Source of the DNA: Candidatus Fimenecus excrementigallinarum
GTDB taxonomy: Bacteria; Bacillota; Clostridia; Oscillospirales; Acutalibacteraceae
DNA: 36,572 nt
Direction of reading: 5' to 3'
Assembly: GCA_018714805.1 (NCBI GenBank)
Contig: DVMW01000006.1
Coordinates: forward strand, 1 to 36,572
The notes under the pieces are model-generated. The model was not told where the DNA came from. It saw only the letters and a program-made list of their open reading frames with translations, and did not search any database. Made by a program: the position numbers and the translations under genes. Each line of letters opens with the position of its first letter. Position 1 is the first letter of the stretch. This document shows positions 4,178 through 31,890 of the stretch, one piece after another.

Positions 4178-4360
4178 GCTGTCTATAGGGCGAATTTTTA
4201 AAAGTTCGTTTCGTAGATGTAAAACGGACAAATTCCCTTTGCGTAGAGATTTGAACTCTCACATAATCAAATAAAATTTAATATTTTTTCTGCTTGTAAT
4301 TAAGACCGGCGGGATTAGCAGAGGTGTGTTTTACAGACATATGTTTTAAATTGCCGTAGG

Positions 4361-5125
4361 CTATGCCTTTACCCACGTTTTTAATTTATAGTCGCTGTCA
4401 AACAGCTTTTCTTCTTTTATAAGAGAATAGAGCTGGGGAGTGTTTCTTTCCGTACCCTCGCTAATCCAAATAATATAATTTTCGTGAAGAATTGCAACCG
4501 TCAGGGTCGTAAAATTGTGTTCGCCTTGATGCCAATCAAAGAATGTGCCATCAAATTCCTGGCTTGCGCAAGCTGTGTAATCCGCATCAACAATATATAC
4601 TTTATTTTCCATTGAAATTGCGTTATTCACATCAGGCAAAAAGCTTTGCATAAAGACTTTTTCGGCAGTTTCTGCATCTTCATATTCCGACAGATAATAA
4701 TATATACTGCTGTTCGGCTGATAAAGAACACCTTGCTGTATATCATCCGAATAAAGGGTTTTGCCGTCAATTTGCTCCTCTTTGCCCTTCTCTTCCTGAT
4801 AAAACCATTTTTCGTTATTACGCAAAAAGCTTTTTGTGTCTAAAAATCTATCGTCTTCCAATAAATATTCGCTGAAATCTGCAAGCTCCTGCTGCGTCAG
4901 CTCAACCTCCATATGTGCCGGGCGCAGATAAGCGCTGTAACAGCCGTGCACGATTACAATACACGGAATTATCATCAAAATCACAGAGCATACAAGTAAG
5001 GAAGTCTTTTTGATTTTGAATTTCCAAATCAGAATTAAAACGATTCCGACAGCAAAAACGATAATAGAAATCAGGCTTCTGACGCAATGCAAGGATTCTA
5101 AAAAATATATTAAATTCGATAACAT
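4361..5125 (-). CDS. Hypothetical membrane-anchored protein, AT-rich, probably acquired
   Basis: A 254-residue protein I do not recognise. Two hydrophobic helices near the N-terminus (about residues 15-33, ISIIVFAVGIVLILIW, and 42-60, LLVCSVILMIIPCIVIV) are followed by a soluble region of about 190 residues rich in acidic and aromatic residues. The arrangement suggests the C-terminal domain lies outside the membrane. There are no metal-binding or catalytic motifs that I can name. ATG 5125 is chosen because GGAG lies six to seven bases upstream; a TTG in frame at 5143 has no such site. Base composition is clearly more AT-rich than the rest of the window, and the gene sits behind a tRNA with duplicated 3' end, so I infer horizontal acquisition. 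The hairpin at 4151-4177 is its likely terminator. Confidence 0.75.
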   Translation of the reverse strand: MLSNLIYFLESLHCVRSLISIIVFAVGIVLILIWKFKIKKTSLLVCSVILMIIPCIVIVHGCYSAYLRPAHMEVELTQQELADFSEYLLEDDRFLDTKSFLRNNEKWFYQEEKGKEEQIDGKTLYSDDIQQGVLYQPNSSIYYYLSEYEDAETAEKVFMQSFLPDVNNAISMENKVYIVDADYTACASQEFDGTFFDWHQGEHNFTTLTVAILHENYIIWISEGTERNTPQLYSLIKEEKLFDSDYKLKTWVKA

Positions 5126-18872: not shown

Positions 18873-21800
18873 TTACCGGGTCGCCTCCATACGCTGCTGG
18901 ACATAGAGCATATCGAAGCCGTCGATAACGCCGTCGCCGTTGAGGTCCGCCGCAAGGGTATAGACGCCCGCCGCTATGGCGGAAGCGTCGAAGATGGCCG
19001 CGCGGATAGCCGTCGCGTCGTTTTCGAGCACGCGGCCGTCGCCGTCCACGTCGCCCAAAAGCAGCACGGTCGCATTGTCATACACCACGCTCGGGTCGTC
19101 TGTCGAAACGCATTGCACCACGCAGCCCGTACCGACCAGCGCGTCGCCGGGAAGCGCCGCGCCGTCGCGCAGGACGCGAATCTGTATCGCCTCGTTTTGC
19201 AGCTGGGCGCGGAGCGCGTCCACCGTTGTGCCGGCCGTCATGCCGCGCAGCAGCACCATCGCGCCGGAGCGGTCGACGGAAACGGCGGTCGAGCCGTCCG
19301 TTTTGGGGGTGATGAGCTTCAGCTCTTCTTTTTCAATATGGACAAGGTAGGAAAGGCTTTCGTAGCTTTCCACACCCGCGGCGTTGACCGCCTTGAAGCG
19401 GAACGTCGCTTTCATTTCTTCGGTAAGCGTCAGGGTGTTTGATTCGAGCTGTTCCCACGCGCCGCCGGTCGTGTAGAAGTAGGTCACGCCGGAAAGGCTG
19501 TTGGGCACATACAGCGTAAAGGTCACGGGGCTTGCGGTCTGGGCGTTCACCGTGCCGGTGACGCCGACCTGCAAAAACGGCTTTTCGCTGTCTATCTGCA
19601 CCGTAAAGGCTTCGGACGCCGCGCTTTGGGCGCCGGTGTTGGACACAGCCGTAAATTCGTAGGTGTGCGCGCCGCTTTCCGTCACGGTAAGCGTGCTGCC
19701 GGCAAGCGTCTGCCAGTCGCCGCCGTCCACACGGTAACGGTACGCCGCAATGCCCGCGGCCGCGTCGCTGGAGAGCGTCATCGTAACGGCCTTTGCCGTC
19801 CACGTACCGGACGCATACGCGCCGTCCGCCGTGGAGGCCGTGACAACGGGCGCGGTGGGCGCTTCTGCGTCAACCGTCACGCCCGCAGAGCGGTACGTCT
19901 CGGCCGTTAAGCCGTTCGTGTCGGACGCCGTCGCTTCGACATAGCCGCTAAAGCTTGCCGGGAGCACCGGGGGCTGCGCTTCGTCATAAGCCGTCCAGTC
20001 CCCAAGCGGTTCGCCGTCCGCCGAAACAAACCGGTACTGTACCTGCACGTCGCCGGTGCCGTTGTACGCGGTTTCTACCGTAAAGCTCGGCGCGGCGGTA
20101 TAGTAACGGCCGAATTCCGTTTCGTCCGTCGCCGCCGGTTCTTCGGAGAACGCAATGCCGGTGACCTCGAGAGAGGGTTCATAGAAATTGTCGACCACAA
20201 GGAGCACCGTTTTGCGCAGGCCGTTGCCGCCGGTCACGGTGAACAGATAGTTGCCGTTTTCCGAAACGGTGACCGCCGGCTTATCGGTGATGTCCGCGCC
20301 GTCCATTTCAACGGATTCGACGCCGGACGGCCCGACGAGCGCCTCCACCGCCACGTCATACGGCGTGCAGGTCGGCCCGGTAACGGCGGGGGTCAGCCGC
20401 AGCTCGGGCTCGGTCGTATCAATCATGACGTGGTAGCTGTCGGAGGTGATGCTTTCGGTGCCCGCGCCGTTTATCGCCTTGAAGCTGTATACGGCGTCGG
20501 TGTTTTCGGTCAGGTACAGGTCCGCGCCGTCAAAGTCGTACCAGCCCGTGCCGTCGCTGTAATAATAGGTGATGCCGGAAAGGCTTTCTTCCTCGGTCTT
20601 GAAGCTGAAGTGCGCGCCGGACGCCGTCCAGCGGCCGAACGTGCCGTCGAAGGTGACGCGGATGACCGGCTTCTGGCGGTCGATGCAGACCGTAAGCGAC
20701 GCCGGCTCGCTTTCGAGCGCGGCGTTGGAAACCGCCTTGAATTCGTAGGTGTGCGTGCCTTCCTCGGCCGCGGTAAACGTATTGCCCGCAAGCGGCTGCC
20801 AGTCGCCGCCGTCCATCCGGTACTGATACTCGTAAATGCCGGAGAACGCCGTGCTTTCCAGCGCGATTTCCACATCGCCCGCAACCCACGCGCCGTCCGT
20901 ATACGCCGTCTCGCCGTACGTCGCGGTCAGCTCGACCTGCGTGGGCGCCGTGCCGTCCAAAACATAGCCGTCGGAGGTGACGACTGCGGAGACGTTCCCC
21001 GCGCGGTCAACGGCGCGCACCTCGGCATAGCCGCGGAAGTTGGGCAGCTGCGTCGGCTTTGCGTCGGCGGAATAGGTCTGCCATTCGGTAGTCTCTTCCG
21101 TTTCGTCGTTATAGAAGCGGTACTCGATACGGTCAAGCCCCGCAACACCCGTATCCTCGGCCGCCGCGGTCAGCTCGACCTCCTCGTTGAAGAACAGGCC
21201 GAAGGTCAGCGTTTCGAGCAGCCGCGCGAAGCCGCCGCCGTTTTTGTGCGCGAGCGTAACCTCCGTCACGGTGGGCGCTTCCTTGTCGATGTTCGCAATT
21301 TCAACCGTCTGGCTGAATTGCAGGCCGTTGTTCGCGGTGACCGTTACGGTATAGCTGCCGTTTTGCTCGACCGTGAAGGCCTCGGGCGCGGCGGTGATGT
21401 CCGTTTCGTTCATCGTGACGCGCTGCACGCCGGAAATGCCGGTCGCAAGGCCGGTGATTTCGACCGTGTAGCTCCGGTTCGTAAGCTCGGACACCGTCGG
21501 CGTCAGGGTAAACGACGGGGTCACGTCGTCGCGCCGGACGGTGTAGCCCGCGGTCTCGGCGCTCTCAATCCCGACGGAGTTTACCGCCTTAAAGTAATAG
21601 GTTTCGCTGCTGTTCGTGCTGACCGTGAAAACGTCGCCGGCAATTTCCTGCCACTCTGTATTCGTATCGGTGCGGTAAGAGTAGGTCACGCCGTTCATCG
21701 GGTGCGTCGCGGAAAGGTTCAGCGACACGTCGCCCGTCGCCCAGCCGCCGTCGTATTCGCCCACGTCGACCGAAACGACCGGCGTGCCGTAGACGATAAC

Positions 21801-24503
21801 CGGGAAATATGCCGTTGCGGACCGCCCGGCGTGCGTGTAGGTTACGGGGATTTGCTGCTCCACGTCGAGAAGCGTCGGGTTAAAGGCGCTGTAGTCCACG
21901 GTGTAGTCCGTGACCTGCTCGGAGGCGGCGTTCTCGTAGTTTGCCGTAACCGTAAGGCCCTCCAAATCCAGCTGATATTCGCCCTCGCTGTAAGCGTAGC
22001 GCGGCGGGTCAAGCGTGATGTCCGTCAGCTTTTTCGATTCGAGCGTAACAGGGAACGTACCGTAGTAATTCCTGCCCGCGCGCGTGACCGACACAATGAT
22101 GTACTGCTGGGTATCCAAAATGCTTTGATTGATTTCGCTGACCGTGTAGTCGGTGACCTCCACGGTAAAATCGCTGTCCGACCAGCCGGTCGTGTCGTAA
22201 TACTGCGCGACGTCCTCCGGGTTGTAGCGCAGCTCCACCTTCATGCCGGTAAGGTCCAGTTCGGTCTCGCCCTCGACGTAATTCGTACGCGCAGGCGCGG
22301 TGACCGTGATGTTTTCGGGTTCAAGCTCGACGACGGTTATCGCGTGGGTGTCCTCGGCGACTTTTCCAACGTGAACGCCGGGCGTATCCCAGCCCTTTTT
22401 CCCAACCGCATACAAGGTCGTATCCCCGGCGGCAAGGCCTGTGACCAGGCCGTTGTTGTCCACGCTTGCAAGGCTGTTTTGCTGGTTGCCCCCTTGGATA
22501 TCCTCGTATGCGTCGTCCGTTGCCGTGACCCACGGGCGAGTTCCGTCGTCCGCCGGCAGGCCCCAATAGTATTCATCGACCTCTGTATCCGCCGGCGTAA
22601 AGCTGACGGAATAGCTGCGCGGGAAATCCTTGATAACATAGTCGCTGCCCGAAATGTCCGCGCTTGTCAGTCTGTAAATTTCGCTGCTGCCGCGAACATT
22701 GAACGTAATGGAACGGGAAACGCCGCCGATTGTCGCGGTGATTGTGACGGATTTGCTGTGATACATTGTCCCGCCGCCGGCATCCTTGCCGTATACGGCG
22801 CCGTTCTCAACGGAGGCGACGCTTGCATCGGAGGTCGTCCAGACGACGGTGTCCAGAAGACCTGCGTCATAGTCTGCCGGCACAATGGAACCTATATCGA
22901 TATAGCCGGTATGGCCCTCCTCCAGCGCGCGTTCTCTTTGGAATCCAATCAGCATATCGGAAAAGCCGCCGCCCAAGGACAAGGTAAAGTCCGTAATCGG
23001 GTTGCCGGCGTTAACCGTCACGCTTTTTTCCAGGACCGTCTCGCCGTACGTCGCCCTGCCGTGCAGGGTGATGACGCCGCTGCCTTTGGGCGTGAGCACG
23101 CCGTCGGCCGTCAGCGTCGCGACGCTCGTGTCGGCGGGCGCGTCGGCGGTTGCCCAGACAACCGCGCCGGTTAAGGGCTCCGTCAGGCCCCATTCGCGGC
23201 GGACGTCGTCGCTGTCGTTTAAGCGCGGCGGGGTCACGTCGATGGTATAGGCCGTGGAGCTGTTGTTCGGAACGGTCGTCGGCCCGACAATCTCCATATC
23301 GGTAATCGTGCCGCCGACAAGCTTCTTATTCACCTGAATTTCCACCGTGCGCGTGACGTCGCCAATCGACGCGGTCACGTTGGTTTTGCGGTTGAGCTGT
23401 GTCCAGCTGCTGCCGCCGTCCAGACCCGTCACAAGGCCGGTCTGGTCGACCACGGCGACGGTCGGGTCGGCGCTCGTCCAGACAAGGTCGCCGGTATACG
23501 CGCCCGCAGGCTGCACGTTCGTAATGGCGAGCTGCGTGGTCTCGCCCTCGTCCATTTCCGTTTCGCCCGTAATGTCAAAGCTCTCAACGGGCAGGTCCTC
23601 CCGGCTTACGACGTTAAACGTAATCGTGTCGGTCACGAAGGCATACGCCGCGCTTTCCGGGTTCAGACGCACGGTCACTTCGCCGACCGAGGTAAAGGTC
23701 ACAAGGCCGTCGGAAGAGACGGTCGCGTGCTTGCCGGACTCGGTATCCAAAATCGTGCCGCCCATCGTCCATTTGATACCCTGTTCGAGACGCACGGGCG
23801 TGCACATGCCGTACAGCTGCACCGTCGCGCCGACCGCCACGGTCGTCGGCACAGAGTTCTTGTTCGTAATATGCACCGCGGTCGGGTAAATGCTCGCAAA
23901 ATCCAGCGTGCTCTGCGTCACGACAACCTCGACCGTATCCGTCGCAAGCACCGAGCCGTCGGCCGCGTGCAGCGTGGCGGTGATTTCGACGTTCATGCTG
24001 TCGAGCGTTTCGCGCAGGCTGTTTGCCAGCGATTCGCCGAACGAGCCGCCCATGTCGCCCACAAATTTGATAAGCCGCTCAATGTCCGCCGGGTCGGCCA
24101 GGTCGATGCCTTGGTCCTCGATGTTTTGGAGGATCGAATCCGCCAAGCTGTCGCCGATAAGCGGCAGAACGCGGACGTTCTCATCGAGCCACTGGTGCAC
24201 GATCGCCTCTTTTGAGAAATCGTAGCCGTGCACCTCGCCGTTTGCATCGACGCCGGCCAGCAGCGGCTGGCTCGATTCCCACGTGACGTACGCGCCCTCC
24301 GGCACGTCGCCCGACGTGGTGTAGCCGAGCTTAACGGACTCGAACTCCTTGACTTCGAGCCGCTCGGTGACCTCGACGCCGTCTTCGTTCGTGATGACAA
24401 TCTGCGCGTCCGCCGCAGCGGCTGTGAGCGCGGGCGTCGCCGTCAAAAGCAGCAGCAGCGCGCACAAAAGGACGCTTAAAACCTGTTTCCCTCTTACCTG
24501 CAT
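18873..24503 (-). CDS. Giant secreted multi-Ig-domain protein with C-terminal type I dockerin
   Basis: 1876 residues. Residues 1-33 are a signal peptide (positively charged start, LLCALLLLL core, AAAADA end). Residues about 200-770 hold BIG2-like domains (ends such as VTGLDG and VTGLAAGDTTLYAVGKKG). About 770-960 contain two Big_3-like units (VEGETELDLTGMKVELRYN and SEGEYQLDLEGLTVTANYE). About 960-1740 contain five modules with a tyrosine-rich strand, W and an FKAVNxxGxES end. The tail is a dockerin: loop one DVDGDGRVLEND at about 1818 and loop two DLNGDGVIDGFD at about 1854, both with full calcium ligands. It would be exported and docked to a cohesin on a scaffold or the cell surface. No catalytic domain is visible. 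No sortase or SLH anchor is seen. GGAG lies five bases before the ATG. Confidence 0.92.
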   Translation of the reverse strand: MQVRGKQVLSVLLCALLLLLTATPALTAAAADAQIVITNEDGVEVTERLEVKEFESVKLGYTTSGDVPEGAYVTWESSQPLLAGVDANGEVHGYDFSKEAIVHQWLDENVRVLPLIGDSLADSILQNIEDQGIDLADPADIERLIKFVGDMGGSFGESLANSLRETLDSMNVEITATLHAADGSVLATDTVEVVVTQSTLDFASIYPTAVHITNKNSVPTTVAVGATVQLYGMCTPVRLEQGIKWTMGGTILDTESGKHATVSSDGLVTFTSVGEVTVRLNPESAAYAFVTDTITFNVVSREDLPVESFDITGETEMDEGETTQLAITNVQPAGAYTGDLVWTSADPTVAVVDQTGLVTGLDGGSSWTQLNRKTNVTASIGDVTRTVEIQVNKKLVGGTITDMEIVGPTTVPNNSSTAYTIDVTPPRLNDSDDVRREWGLTEPLTGAVVWATADAPADTSVATLTADGVLTPKGSGVITLHGRATYGETVLEKSVTVNAGNPITDFTLSLGGGFSDMLIGFQRERALEEGHTGYIDIGSIVPADYDAGLLDTVVWTTSDASVASVENGAVYGKDAGGGTMYHSKSVTITATIGGVSRSITFNVRGSSEIYRLTSADISGSDYVIKDFPRSYSVSFTPADTEVDEYYWGLPADDGTRPWVTATDDAYEDIQGGNQQNSLASVDNNGLVTGLAAGDTTLYAVGKKGWDTPGVHVGKVAEDTHAITVVELEPENITVTAPARTNYVEGETELDLTGMKVELRYNPEDVAQYYDTTGWSDSDFTVEVTDYTVSEINQSILDTQQYIIVSVTRAGRNYYGTFPVTLESKKLTDITLDPPRYAYSEGEYQLDLEGLTVTANYENAASEQVTDYTVDYSAFNPTLLDVEQQIPVTYTHAGRSATAYFPVIVYGTPVVSVDVGEYDGGWATGDVSLNLSATHPMNGVTYSYRTDTNTEWQEIAGDVFTVSTNSSETYYFKAVNSVGIESAETAGYTVRRDDVTPSFTLTPTVSELTNRSYTVEITGLATGISGVQRVTMNETDITAAPEAFTVEQNGSYTVTVTANNGLQFSQTVEIANIDKEAPTVTEVTLAHKNGGGFARLLETLTFGLFFNEEVELTAAAEDTGVAGLDRIEYRFYNDETEETTEWQTYSADAKPTQLPNFRGYAEVRAVDRAGNVSAVVTSDGYVLDGTAPTQVELTATYGETAYTDGAWVAGDVEIALESTAFSGIYEYQYRMDGGDWQPLAGNTFTAAEEGTHTYEFKAVSNAALESEPASLTVCIDRQKPVIRVTFDGTFGRWTASGAHFSFKTEEESLSGITYYYSDGTGWYDFDGADLYLTENTDAVYSFKAINGAGTESITSDSYHVMIDTTEPELRLTPAVTGPTCTPYDVAVEALVGPSGVESVEMDGADITDKPAVTVSENGNYLFTVTGGNGLRKTVLLVVDNFYEPSLEVTGIAFSEEPAATDETEFGRYYTAAPSFTVETAYNGTGDVQVQYRFVSADGEPLGDWTAYDEAQPPVLPASFSGYVEATASDTNGLTAETYRSAGVTVDAEAPTAPVVTASTADGAYASGTWTAKAVTMTLSSDAAAGIAAYRYRVDGGDWQTLAGSTLTVTESGAHTYEFTAVSNTGAQSAASEAFTVQIDSEKPFLQVGVTGTVNAQTASPVTFTLYVPNSLSGVTYFYTTGGAWEQLESNTLTLTEEMKATFRFKAVNAAGVESYESLSYLVHIEKEELKLITPKTDGSTAVSVDRSGAMVLLRGMTAGTTVDALRAQLQNEAIQIRVLRDGAALPGDALVGTGCVVQCVSTDDPSVVYDNATVLLLGDVDGDGRVLENDATAIRAAIFDASAIAAGVYTLAADLNGDGVIDGFDMLYVQQRMEATR

Positions 24504-29516: not shown

Positions 29517-29891
29517 ATGCAGCTGCAGGAATCCGGCGAGATGTACCTCGAGACCATCCTGGTGCTTTCGCAAAAAAAGCCGGCTGTGCGGGCTATTGAT
29601 ATTGTGGAATACAGGCAGTTCAGCAAGCCGAGCGTCAGCCGCGCGCTGGGGCTTTTGAAGGCCGGCGGCTTCGTCACCGTGGAGGAAAACGGGCATATCC
29701 GCCTGACCGAAACGGGCCGCGCCGTCGCCGAAAAAATTTACACCCGCCACACGGTGCTGACCAAAGTCCTCACGTCGCTGGGCGTGCCGGAGGCGGTCGC
29801 CGCCGCGGACGCGTGCAAAATGGAGCACGTCATCAGCGACGAAACCTTTGAAGCCTTGCAGACGCACATCCGCGAGCACACCGCAGATTAA
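29517..29891 (+). CDS. DtxR/MntR-family metal-responsive repressor, short form
   Basis: A 124-residue regulator. The N-terminal winged helix includes YLETILVLSQ, IDIVEYRQFSKPSVSRALGLL (recognition helix around SKPSVSRAL) and the wing FVTVEENGHIRLTETG. The dimerisation part follows with metal-ligand candidates: HTVLTKVLTSLGV, ADACKMEHVISDETFEAL (Cys, Glu and His of the DtxR metal sites). It lacks the SH3-like third domain of IdeR/DtxR and so is MntR-sized. AAAGGAGG lies seven bases before ATG 29517. Divergent from the feo operon, with palindromes of the DtxR type there; I infer it represses feo when Fe2+ is plentiful. Confidence 0.9.
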   Translation: MQLQESGEMYLETILVLSQKKPAVRAIDIVEYRQFSKPSVSRALGLLKAGGFVTVEENGHIRLTETGRAVAEKIYTRHTVLTKVLTSLGVPEAVAAADACKMEHVISDETFEALQTHIREHTAD

Positions 29892-29906
29892 GCTGCCCCA
29901 TGCAAA

Positions 29907-29939
29907 AGACGCGCACCCGGTTTTGCCGGATGCGCGTCT
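29907..29939. repeat. 33-bp terminator hairpin, left copy
   Basis: Identical to 30216-30248. A 14-position stem with one mismatch and a TTTTG loop. AAAA precedes it but no T-run follows on the plus strand; on the minus strand it is followed by TTTT, so it can stop only minus-strand transcripts. Confidence 0.9.
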
Positions 29940-30215
29940 CGGATTGTCAAAAAACGAACCTATATTCGCCATTTGCACGGCGAGCTTTTTAAGCGGCGCT
30001 CCTGCGGCGCTTCGGGGAACCCCCTGCGAGGGTTCCCCGCCGAAAAACATCCCGCCGGGATGTTTTTCGCCCCTCCTGCGCTTTGAGAAGGCAGGGAAGT
30101 TTCGCGTCCTGCGGGACGCGACGGGGGCGCCGCCCCTCGACCCCGCCGCCTTTTGAAAAAGGCGGGCGAAAACTTTTGCAGTCCGTTATATGCAAGAGGT
30201 TTTCTTTCCAAACGC
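29940..30215. repeat. Hairpin-cluster element between two terminator copies
   Basis: 276 bases without a gene, packed with palindromes: a 9-bp stem GGGGAACCC/GGGTTCCCC (30014-30038), a 13-bp perfect stem (30041-30053 with 30057-30069, apex GCC), CGCGTCC/GGACGCG (30103-30120) and CCGCCTTTT-GAAAAAGGCGG near 30146-30165. Outer sequences AAGTTTCGC and GCGAAAACTT (about 30098-30176) could close a larger fold. It looks like a small non-coding dispersed repeat (REP/MITE-like) inserted into a terminator; transcripts from both neighbouring genes would cross it. Confidence 0.65.
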
Positions 30216-30248
30216 AGACGCGCACCCGGTTTTGCCGGATGCGCGTCT
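30216..30248. terminator. 33-bp terminator hairpin, right copy
   Basis: Exact copy of 29907-29939. TTTTTATT follows on the plus strand (overlapping the capG stop codon), so it can end plus-strand transcripts from the repressor gene. No A-run precedes it, so it lacks a U-tract for capG. Confidence 0.85.
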
Positions 30249-30250
30249 TT

Positions 30251-31381
30251 TTATTCGCCCTTGCGCCAGGTCGTGAGGTTCACGATTTTCGCATAGCTTT
30301 GAATGATTTTACAGACCTTGACCGAAACGTTCGTGTCGGCGTAGTCCTCCGCCATCACGGTTTCCTCGCCGTTTTCATACATGGCGACGGCCAAATCCAT
30401 CGCCTGCTTCACGTCCTCGCCGCGGATGCCGCCGACGACGACCGTGCCCTTGTCGAGCACCTCGGGGCGCTCGGTCGAGGTGCGCACAAGCACCGCCGGG
30501 AAGCCGAGCATGGCGGATTCCTCCGACAGCGTCCCGCTGTCCGACAGCACGCAGTAGGCGTTCTTCTGCAGCTTGTTGTAGTCCAAAAAGCCGAACGGCT
30601 TGAGGCTCTGCACCAGCGGGTGGAAGCAAAAGCCGCGCTTTTCAATCCGGCTGCGCGAGCGCGGGTGCGTGGAATAGATAATGGGCATCCGGTACTGCTC
30701 GGCAATCTCGTTGACCGCGTTCATCAGCGACAGGAAATGCGCCTCGTTGTCGATGTTCTCCTCGCGGTGCGCGGACAGGAGGATGTATTTGCGCGGCGTC
30801 AGGCCCAGCGTCTCCAGGACGCGGCTCTGCTCAATTTTTTCGGCGTGGTCGCGCAGCACCTCGCGCATGGGCGAGCCCGTCACGAACACCGTTTTGCCGT
30901 CTATCCCCTCGTTCAGGAGATAGCGCCGGCTGTGCTCGGTGTAGGGCAGGTTGATGTCGGAAATATGGTCGACGATGGTGCGGTTGGTCATCTCCGGCAC
31001 GTTCCAGTCCCAGCAGCGGTTGCCCGCCTCCATGTGGAAAATCGGAATTTTCAGGCGCTTTGCGGAAATCGCGGACAGCGCGGAATTCGTGTCGCCCAGG
31101 ATAAGCAGCGCGTCCGGCCGTTCCTTTTCGAGCACCTCGTAGGATTTGGCGAGGATGTTGCCCATCGTTTCGCCGAGCGTTTTCCCGACGCTGTCGAGGT
31201 AATAGTCCGGCGCGCGCAGGCCCAGGTCCTCAAAGAACACCTCGTTGAGCGTGTAATCCCAGTTCTGCCCCGTATGCACAAGGATATGGTTGAAATATTT
31301 GTCCGCACAGCGGATAACCGCCGACAGACGGATAATCTCCGGACGCGTGCCGAGGATGGTCATCAATTTCAGCTTGGACAT
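30251..31381 (-). CDS. capG: UDP-N-acetyl-L-fucosamine synthase (2-epimerase) CapG/FnlC type
   Basis: A 376-residue member of the UDP-GlcNAc 2-epimerase (WecB) family: GTRPEIIRLSAVI, HTGQNWDYTLN, HMEAGNRCWDWNVPEMTNR, and SDSGTLSEESAMLGFPAVLVR. The WDWNVPEMTNR form of the MEAG loop and the neighbours CapE and CapF point to the C2 epimerase that turns UDP-N-acetyl-L-pneumosamine (2-acetamido-2,6-dideoxy-L-talose form) into UDP-L-FucNAc. ATG 31381 has GGAGG seven bases upstream; a longer in-frame reading crosses the VanZ gene and has no site. It overlaps the VanZ gene by 13 bases. Cytosolic. Confidence 0.9.
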   Translation of the reverse strand: MSKLKLMTILGTRPEIIRLSAVIRCADKYFNHILVHTGQNWDYTLNEVFFEDLGLRAPDYYLDSVGKTLGETMGNILAKSYEVLEKERPDALLILGDTNSALSAISAKRLKIPIFHMEAGNRCWDWNVPEMTNRTIVDHISDINLPYTEHSRRYLLNEGIDGKTVFVTGSPMREVLRDHAEKIEQSRVLETLGLTPRKYILLSAHREENIDNEAHFLSLMNAVNEIAEQYRMPIIYSTHPRSRSRIEKRGFCFHPLVQSLKPFGFLDYNKLQKNAYCVLSDSGTLSEESAMLGFPAVLVRTSTERPEVLDKGTVVVGGIRGEDVKQAMDLAVAMYENGEETVMAEDYADTNVSVKVCKIIQSYAKIVNLTTWRKGE

Positions 31382-31890
31382 GGTGGTTCCTCCCCTGTCT
31401 TTTGTAAAGTTTTGCGCCGGCGCAGCCGTCTTGCGCCGAGGGCGGCGCCGTACAGCAGCCACACAAGCGCCGCCGCGCACAGTGCGCCGCAAAAATCCAA
31501 AAGCACGTCCTGCACGCGCGGGCCGCGGCCGGACAGGATTTGGATGGATTCATCCGCAACGGCAACGGCGAGCGCGGCGGACAGCGTATTCCAAAGCGTT
31601 TGCAGCCGCAGCCTTCGGTGCAGCAGCAGAAACAGCGCCGCGAGCTCCGTGCCCAGCGCGAAAAATTCCACGGCGTGCGCCGCCTTGCGGACGGCCTGCA
31701 CAAAGCTGCGCCAGCCCGCCTTGTCCGACGCGAACGTCTGCGCCTGCGGCAGGACCGAAGCGAGCCGGTCGGCCACGTCCGTCGCGCTTTGCGCGGACGC
31801 TTGTGTCGGGAGCGCGGAATTGTAGAAAATGAACGCGGCCGTGCCGAGCGCGAGCGCCAGGCAGATAAGCAAGGCGGCTTTCCGTTTCAT
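31369..31890 (-). CDS. VanZ-like membrane protein
   Basis: A 173-residue protein with an N-terminal helix (ALLICLALALGTAAFIFY), and a VanZ-type core with HAVEFFALGTELAAL, helix, then DESIQILSGRGPRVQDVLLDFCGAL, which holds the family's conserved acidic/Gln residues, and a last helix before an Arg-rich tail. VanZ-like proteins are widespread in Firmicutes; only a few affect glycopeptide susceptibility and most have no known role. It lies three bases after capF and overlaps capG by 13 bases, thus inside the FucNAc operon. Nothing here indicates vancomycin resistance genes. Confidence 0.85.
   Translation of the reverse strand: MKRKAALLICLALALGTAAFIFYNSALPTQASAQSATDVADRLASVLPQAQTFASDKAGWRSFVQAVRKAAHAVEFFALGTELAALFLLLHRRLRLQTLWNTLSAALAVAVADESIQILSGRGPRVQDVLLDFCGALCAAALVWLLYGAALGARRLRRRKTLQKTGEEPPCPS

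Follow-up and report, generated by a model that had tools for sequence, protein, structure and literature searches.

How did one terminator stem-loop come to stand on both sides of a block of DNA without recognisable genes? The question arises in a stretch of 36,572 nucleotides from Candidatus Fimenecus excrementigallinarum (contig DVMW01000006.1), hereafter the window, where a metal-dependent repressor gene and a UDP-N-acetylglucosamine 2-epimerase gene converge around such a block (Table 1). A sequence-only reading had suggested that a non-coding element entered a bidirectional terminator at this place and duplicated its hairpin, and we have followed this suggestion through the genomes of the genus.

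The duplicated terminator and its neighbourhood

The two 33-nt copies of the stem-loop are identical, have a spacing of 309 and each form a hairpin with 14-nt arms, exactly where the sequence-only reading had placed them. Their tracts are divided between the two sides, as that reading had also described: the left copy has AAAA on its left and CGGATTG, without a T-run, on its right, and the right copy has TTTTTATT on its right and CAAACGC, without an A-tract, on its left. With up to 3 mismatches allowed, the 33-mer occurs in its own genome (1.87 Mb) at these two places only and is therefore specific to this locus rather than part of the element's repeat family. The block was indeed found to be free of genes insofar as none of the three open reading frames of at least 100 aa that overlap it has a Pfam match, and two Pfam domains show that the repressor is DtxR-like. 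Folded as RNA, positions 29890-30260 reach -188.2 kcal/mol (z -9.5). At another place of the window (18873-24503) lies the gene of an 1876-aa protein in which a Big_2 domain was recognised, together with dockerin type I at the C-terminus.

Neither 33-bp copy was flagged by a simple terminator scan, for which a C/A mismatch within the stem is the probable reason. On the + strand, the same scan reported one weak site within the element (29965-29984, with shuffled sequences averaging 1.5), so that it is not certain that rightward transcripts cross the entire element. As far as the sequence can tell, both mRNAs would carry structured 3' tails.

Table 1. Features at the duplicated terminator (positions in the window)
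Feature	Positions	Strand	Evidence
DtxR/MntR-type metal-dependent repressor gene, left of the block, rightward	29517-29891	+	PF01325 and PF02742 above cut-off
A-tract, serving as U-run for leftward transcripts on the - strand	29903-29906		sequence
Terminator stem-loop, left duplicate (target site duplication)	29907-29939		exact 33/33 repeat and hairpin
Non-coding element, 276 bp; right boundary uncertain by 2 nt	29940-30215	+	263/276 in sister genome G037; family ends abut repeats
Left terminal inverted repeat CGGATTGTCAAAAAA	29940-29954	+	2 mismatches to YAGNNTGTMGAWAAA; sister genome G037 has CAGATTGTCAAAAAA
Conserved core: five covarying hairpins, invariant unpaired TCCTGCG at 30074-30080	30014-30177	+	core alignment
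Right terminal inverted repeat, degenerate	30201-30215	-	5 mismatches (4 with 30217 as end)
Terminator stem-loop, right duplicate	30216-30248		exact 33/33 repeat
T-tract for rightward transcripts	30249-30256	+	sequence
UDP-N-acetylglucosamine 2-epimerase gene, right of the block, leftward	30251-31492	-	PF02350, E 9.7e-88

A dispersed element family

The sequence-only reading would have been contradicted by a block found only here, yet the core of the element occurs at five places of its own genome, the window included, besides one additional partial core, and 19 of the 39 genomes from the genus have it, this one included. One genome has at least 26 matches, and all such per-genome counts are lower bounds drawn from no more than 19 candidates scored per genome. 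Being short, gene-free and present in many copies, the element has the properties of a MITE, to which target site duplications and empty sites in relatives can be added (see below); terminal inverted repeats (TIRs) are a property of the family that is weak in the window copy. Among viral contigs, a 23-base core pattern had no match, and the phage records searched contained no element. The plasmid records yielded a single module match, in which 37 bp of Anaerotruncus colihominis plasmid NZ_CP094683.1 (L323, 1501-1537) are identical to hairpin 5 and the GAAAACTTTT core end; the match lies in an intergenic stretch with other repeats, and the module thus exists beyond the copies studied.

The two ends of many copies are formed by CAGnnTGTmGAwAAA in inverted orientation. 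Compared with a reversed control, this TIR pattern is in excess in G033 (37 versus 2), G034 (65 versus 1) and G019 (6 versus 1). No excess was seen in G032 (4 versus 4), in G025 (1 versus 1) or in G038, G037 and the window's own genome (each 0 versus 2), which we ascribe to drift of the copies. The family also appears modular: two copies (L269, L284) contain internal cargo of 260-270 bp at nearly matching points in the core, and both ends are retained in mini forms that measure 109 bp (G034:C18:18757-18865 and G034:C24:9154-9262).

Copies of the element are not spread evenly over gene arrangements. Of the 97 copies that could be classified (3 of 100 being unclassified), 38 have convergent, 53 tandem and 6 divergent neighbours, whereas the 55 other gene pairs comprise 11 convergent, 34 tandem and 10 divergent ones (Fisher tests gave p = 0.019 for the convergent and 0.028 for the divergent class). 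According to a rough ORF caller, an open frame of at least 100 codons is found at the approximate edge of the element in 33 of 100 copies and 400 bp further left in 76 of 97, so that copies are depleted in genes and some genes may be interrupted.

Stem-loops as target site duplications

Other copies of the element have hairpins of their own. The copies studied come from 113 copy-bearing loci that were taken from best-scoring lists and not at random. A profile matched 117 times in them, and omission of four partial and four short-flank matches together with merging of nine duplicates left 100 near-full cores, 99 of which could be scored (one has an unreadable flank of Ns). A direct repeat common to the left and right flanks, called at a score of at least 13 with the right copy starting 19-46 bases past the core, is present in 39 of these 99 copies, among them the orthologous pairs L004/L028 and L002/L180, and 32 of the 39 repeats fold as hairpins with z < -2. 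Of 2934 control pairs of flanks from different loci, 0.6% reach a score of 14.

A stricter test fixed the element ends by allowing up to 3 mismatches in each and up to 4 in both together, which gave 48 copies from 133 loci. The window copy falls outside this set because its right TIR is poor. Direct repeats abut the element in 32 of the 48 both-ended copies (24 exactly, 8 within 3 nt), compared with none of 2256 mismatched pairs, and measure 19-36 bp. In 29 of the 32, the repeat is a whole stem-loop with its feet no more than 2 nt from both ends and an energy of -6 or lower. Shuffled repeats pass this foot test in 1.5 of 32 cases on average and 5 at most; with the windows displaced by 5, 10 and 15 nt, the numbers are 1, 1 and 0. 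One of the remaining repeats (L195) does not fold. The 32 repeats, which stem from four genomes only (2 from G019, 5 from G032, 8 from G033 and 17 from G034), are mutually unlike, with no pair above the score cut of 0.6. Immediately outside of them, a mean of 5.0 of 8 bases on the left are A and 5.1 of 8 on the right are T, falling to 3.0 and 3.5 in the next eight, a composition that resembles bidirectional intrinsic terminators. No repeat passed the cut in the other 16 of these 48; visual inspection showed related, diverged hairpins on both sides of six (L188, L214, L219, L220, L287, L010) and no hairpin pair at two (L196, L227). Entry of an element into a terminator, as proposed for the window, is supported there and applies to the family as well.

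Relatives with and without the element

The same locus in related genomes shows what such sites look like before or without the element. CGGGGACGCAAAATGCGTCCCCGC stands on either side of the element in G024 (L230), whereas G025 has this hairpin once at the same locus, with A-tract and right flank intact and no element. In a second case, G000 (L005) has a truncated copy between two near-identical hairpins, and the corresponding site of G037 is empty with one hairpin of another stem sequence. As a side observation, G038 has ca. 500 bp of other sequence (G038:C2 ~4212-4712, L311) beside the same hairpin at this site, which G024 has filled and G025 empty; another hairpin stands on the far side of that sequence, and terminators in these genomes may thus be repeated insertion targets.

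At the window site itself, G038 and G025 have no element and a single hairpin in the ca. 65-70 bp between the protein matches; G024 likewise has one hairpin and no element, with an extra open reading frame of ca. 1 kb. The worry that relatives never had one joined terminator is thereby answered, though the stem sequence differs in all three genomes so that a joined ancestor of exactly the window hairpin is not seen. Sister genome G037 contains the entire block at the same site, with a right hairpin identical to that of the window (33/33) and a left one matching at 26 of 33 positions, which speaks against the reading and implies that one left copy was rewritten. The seven differences include paired changes, in a block that is 95% identical, and point to palindromes being rewritten in concert, perhaps by template switching.

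A core selected for base pairing

Alignment of 38 diverse cores over 171 columns revealed five hairpins in which 97.9% of cells are paired and 25 of 40 pairs show compensatory changes. The covariation score of 0.394 compares with 0.138 for shuffles and a maximum of 0.104 for slid partners, so that base pairing itself is under selection, whether as RNA or as DNA. The unpaired TCCTGCG that separates hairpins 2 and 3 is invariant in 38 of 38 cores, mostly after a C; read as RNA, it is similar to the anti-Shine-Dalgarno stretch (CUCCU), so that a role as RNA is possible. At gathering score, Rfam has no family over the element and finds only a tRNA in the window. The sub-threshold matches over the element, of which RNAI is best (31.9 versus 47 bits, E 0.00031), were dismissed as chance hits in a hairpin-rich stretch.

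Search for a mobiliser

No transposase with matching ends was found among the candidates with PF13751, of IS1634 or with PF00665. A resident mobiliser of IS1182 type was rejected because PF13751 occurs in only 1 of 39 genomes, at a locus (L260) without a matching pair of ends, and IS1634 because its transposase model (NF033559) matches none of the 39 genomes of the genus. PF00665 was found at seven places, distributed over 5 of 12 genomes, and the scans of its loci for ends gave none that match. Family tests of three of the proteins assigned L261 to IS3 and L262 and L266 to IS481-like elements (L262 with 219 bits, slightly below the cut-off of 224); L264 looks IS3-like from its similarity to L261, L263 was inspected as a list of ORFs, and L265 and L267 were scanned for the end pattern. 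An autonomous copy was also sought in G034, where 20 regions at unpaired TIR matches showed no second inverted end at a distance of 1-3 kb; they contained full or partial cores, short forms, two forms with 260-270 bp cargo and, in L270, a truncated left end.

Across the bacterial family, IS481-like elements are flanked by duplications of 24-28 bp at 8 of 24 loci. Such duplications are unusually long for IS481 elements and tell us that long staggers occur in these bacteria, though not bounded by hairpins. As mobilisers, IS481-like elements were rejected for their different ends and because their duplications fail the foot test. The loci of interest include G000:C5:27629-28567 (L288), L266, L289, L293, L295, L298, L301, L302 and L305; L266 and L289 lie at terminator-like hairpins as judged by eye, and the IS481-like copy of the window's own genome runs off the contig end.

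Weighing the explanations

Dispersed copies, imperfect TIRs, abutting repeats that are specific to their locus and match entire stem-loops, single hairpins at empty sites and a core under selection for pairing were all observed, and the window block is very probably a copy of a MITE-like non-autonomous family, belonging to this uncultured genus of Clostridia, that inserted in a bidirectional terminator and duplicated the stem-loop as its target site duplication (TSD). That an insertion took place is almost certain. The hairpins do abut the element and might for this reason be its own ends and not target DNA, but we give this practically no credence and have rejected it given that they vary by locus, that the 33-mer lies nowhere else in the genome and that G025 has the hairpin of the G024 site without the element. 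Alternatively, two earlier terminators could have been made alike by gene conversion or template switching, with the block arising or entering between them and nothing being duplicated. The rewritten left hairpin of G037 beside an identical right one is what such a process would leave, but duplicated repeats of individual sequence at two-thirds of the TIR-bounded copies (32/48) and the one hairpin of element-free relatives make this account very improbable.

Two further possibilities concern how the insertion was made. Structure-directed insertion by a non-DDE route, e.g., into lagging-strand hairpins or via an RNA intermediate, would fit a target that is a hairpin as well as a core that covaries as strongly as expected of functional RNA or single-stranded DNA. 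However, the family has inverted terminal repeats and abutting two-sided duplications, which are the usual marks of DDE transposition, and we regard a non-DDE route as unlikely. Instead, a transposase with a long fixed stagger of ca. 24-28 bp (IS481-like or of the IS1202 group) could simply prefer terminators, leaving the match to hairpins as a by-product. The IS481-like duplications described above, two of them by eye at hairpins, lend some plausibility to this idea, as do the duplications of 16-28 bp without known target in the IS1202 group, according to the portions of PMC10132070 used here. Yet a near-constant duplication length independent of hairpins is not what we see: duplications of the element range over 19-36 bp and end at hairpin feet, none of the eight IS481-like duplications passes the foot test, and IS481-like ends (TGTAGGT...) differ from CAGnnTGTmGAw. 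A fixed-stagger enzyme is accordingly quite unlikely in our view.

Relation to known systems

Group IIC introns insert at terminator hairpins using a reverse transcriptase and are not known to duplicate the hairpin; the Rfam search of the window, with a tRNA as its only result, gives no such intron. The closest known parallel is IS1272 of the IS1182 family, whose stem-loop-replacing transposition is described in the consulted parts of PMC5678879: the element encodes its transposase, and the target stem-loop, recognised by structure in unrelated sequences of variable size, is deleted without duplication. In four gene-near cases the target lies immediately downstream of genes, and the same portions of the paper attribute the mention of palindrome targets in the IS1182 family to Siguier et al. 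(PMC5678879). Our element shares the stem-loop target whatever its sequence (29 of 32 duplications, all unrelated), and its variable size, but the stem-loop is here kept and duplicated on both sides and not replaced. In the model of Wan et al., insofar as these parts of the article present it, stem-loop duplication is drawn only as possible pathway b (PMC5678879).

The bacterial MITEs RUP, BOX and MITEAba12 resemble the element in being short, gene-free, multi-copy and structured with TIRs and target duplications, as far as the relevant excerpts of PMC10969869, PMC3049150 and PMC6382973 describe them. By the same excerpts, it differs from them in its GC-rich core, its terminator stem-loop target and its stem-loop-sized duplications of 19-36 bp, as well as in that no partner IS was found among the transposase families searched. 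The IS1202 group has long duplications (16-28 bp) and a TGT in its ends, as the element has in its inner TIR, a resemblance that need not mean kinship; its members encode a transposase, and its authors found no target according to the excerpted text (PMC10132070). IS1634/IS1549 likewise make long, variable direct repeats (8-514 bp), unlike the element without a tie to hairpins in the excerpts of PMC2266710, and the IS1634 transposase is absent from all 39 genomes. In those parts of the open-access literature that our search covered, no described element has a terminator stem-loop as its duplication.

Proposed mechanism and implications

The window site is one of dozens, belonging to a MITE family with the terminator stem-loop as its target duplication. 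Sister elements at dozens of other terminators suggest an enzyme that recognises hairpin shape in DNA, in which case the stem-loop structure would be what is recognised, and we lean towards a structure-directed attack. In our model, the element would have entered a single bidirectional terminator between the two convergent genes while its hairpin was extruded from the DNA, with attack at the 5' feet of the hairpin. Gap repair would then copy the entire palindrome, so that the length of the TSD tracks that of the hairpin and not a fixed stagger. We propose that duplications are variable and hairpin-sized because the feet would be adjacent in the four-way junction at any stem length. The outcome would be an A-tract with hairpin on the left flank and a hairpin with T-tract on the right, and since each flank keeps a hairpin and its own U-run, a complete terminator would, by its sequence, remain within reach of each gene once the element has been transcribed.

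More tentatively, a transposition system may read terminators by the shape of their DNA hairpins and attack the extruded 5' feet, with a palindrome of any length or sequence becoming the TSD. If true, this would be the natural counterpart of the stem-loop-duplicating pathway that was drawn for IS1272 as one possible route. What such a system transports is a five-hairpin structure under selection, whose unpaired UCCUGCG is invariant and which may be a functional RNA brought to gene 3' ends.

The family provides a natural data set of target duplications that are terminator stem-loops, sized by the hairpin and not by the enzyme, and with it structure-directed transposition becomes testable. It suggests a way for an element to settle at gene 3' ends while sparing termination, by leaving a complete terminator for each neighbour. 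It also hints at a class of shape-defined insertion sites and at a means for bacterial 3' UTRs to gain conserved structured sequence.
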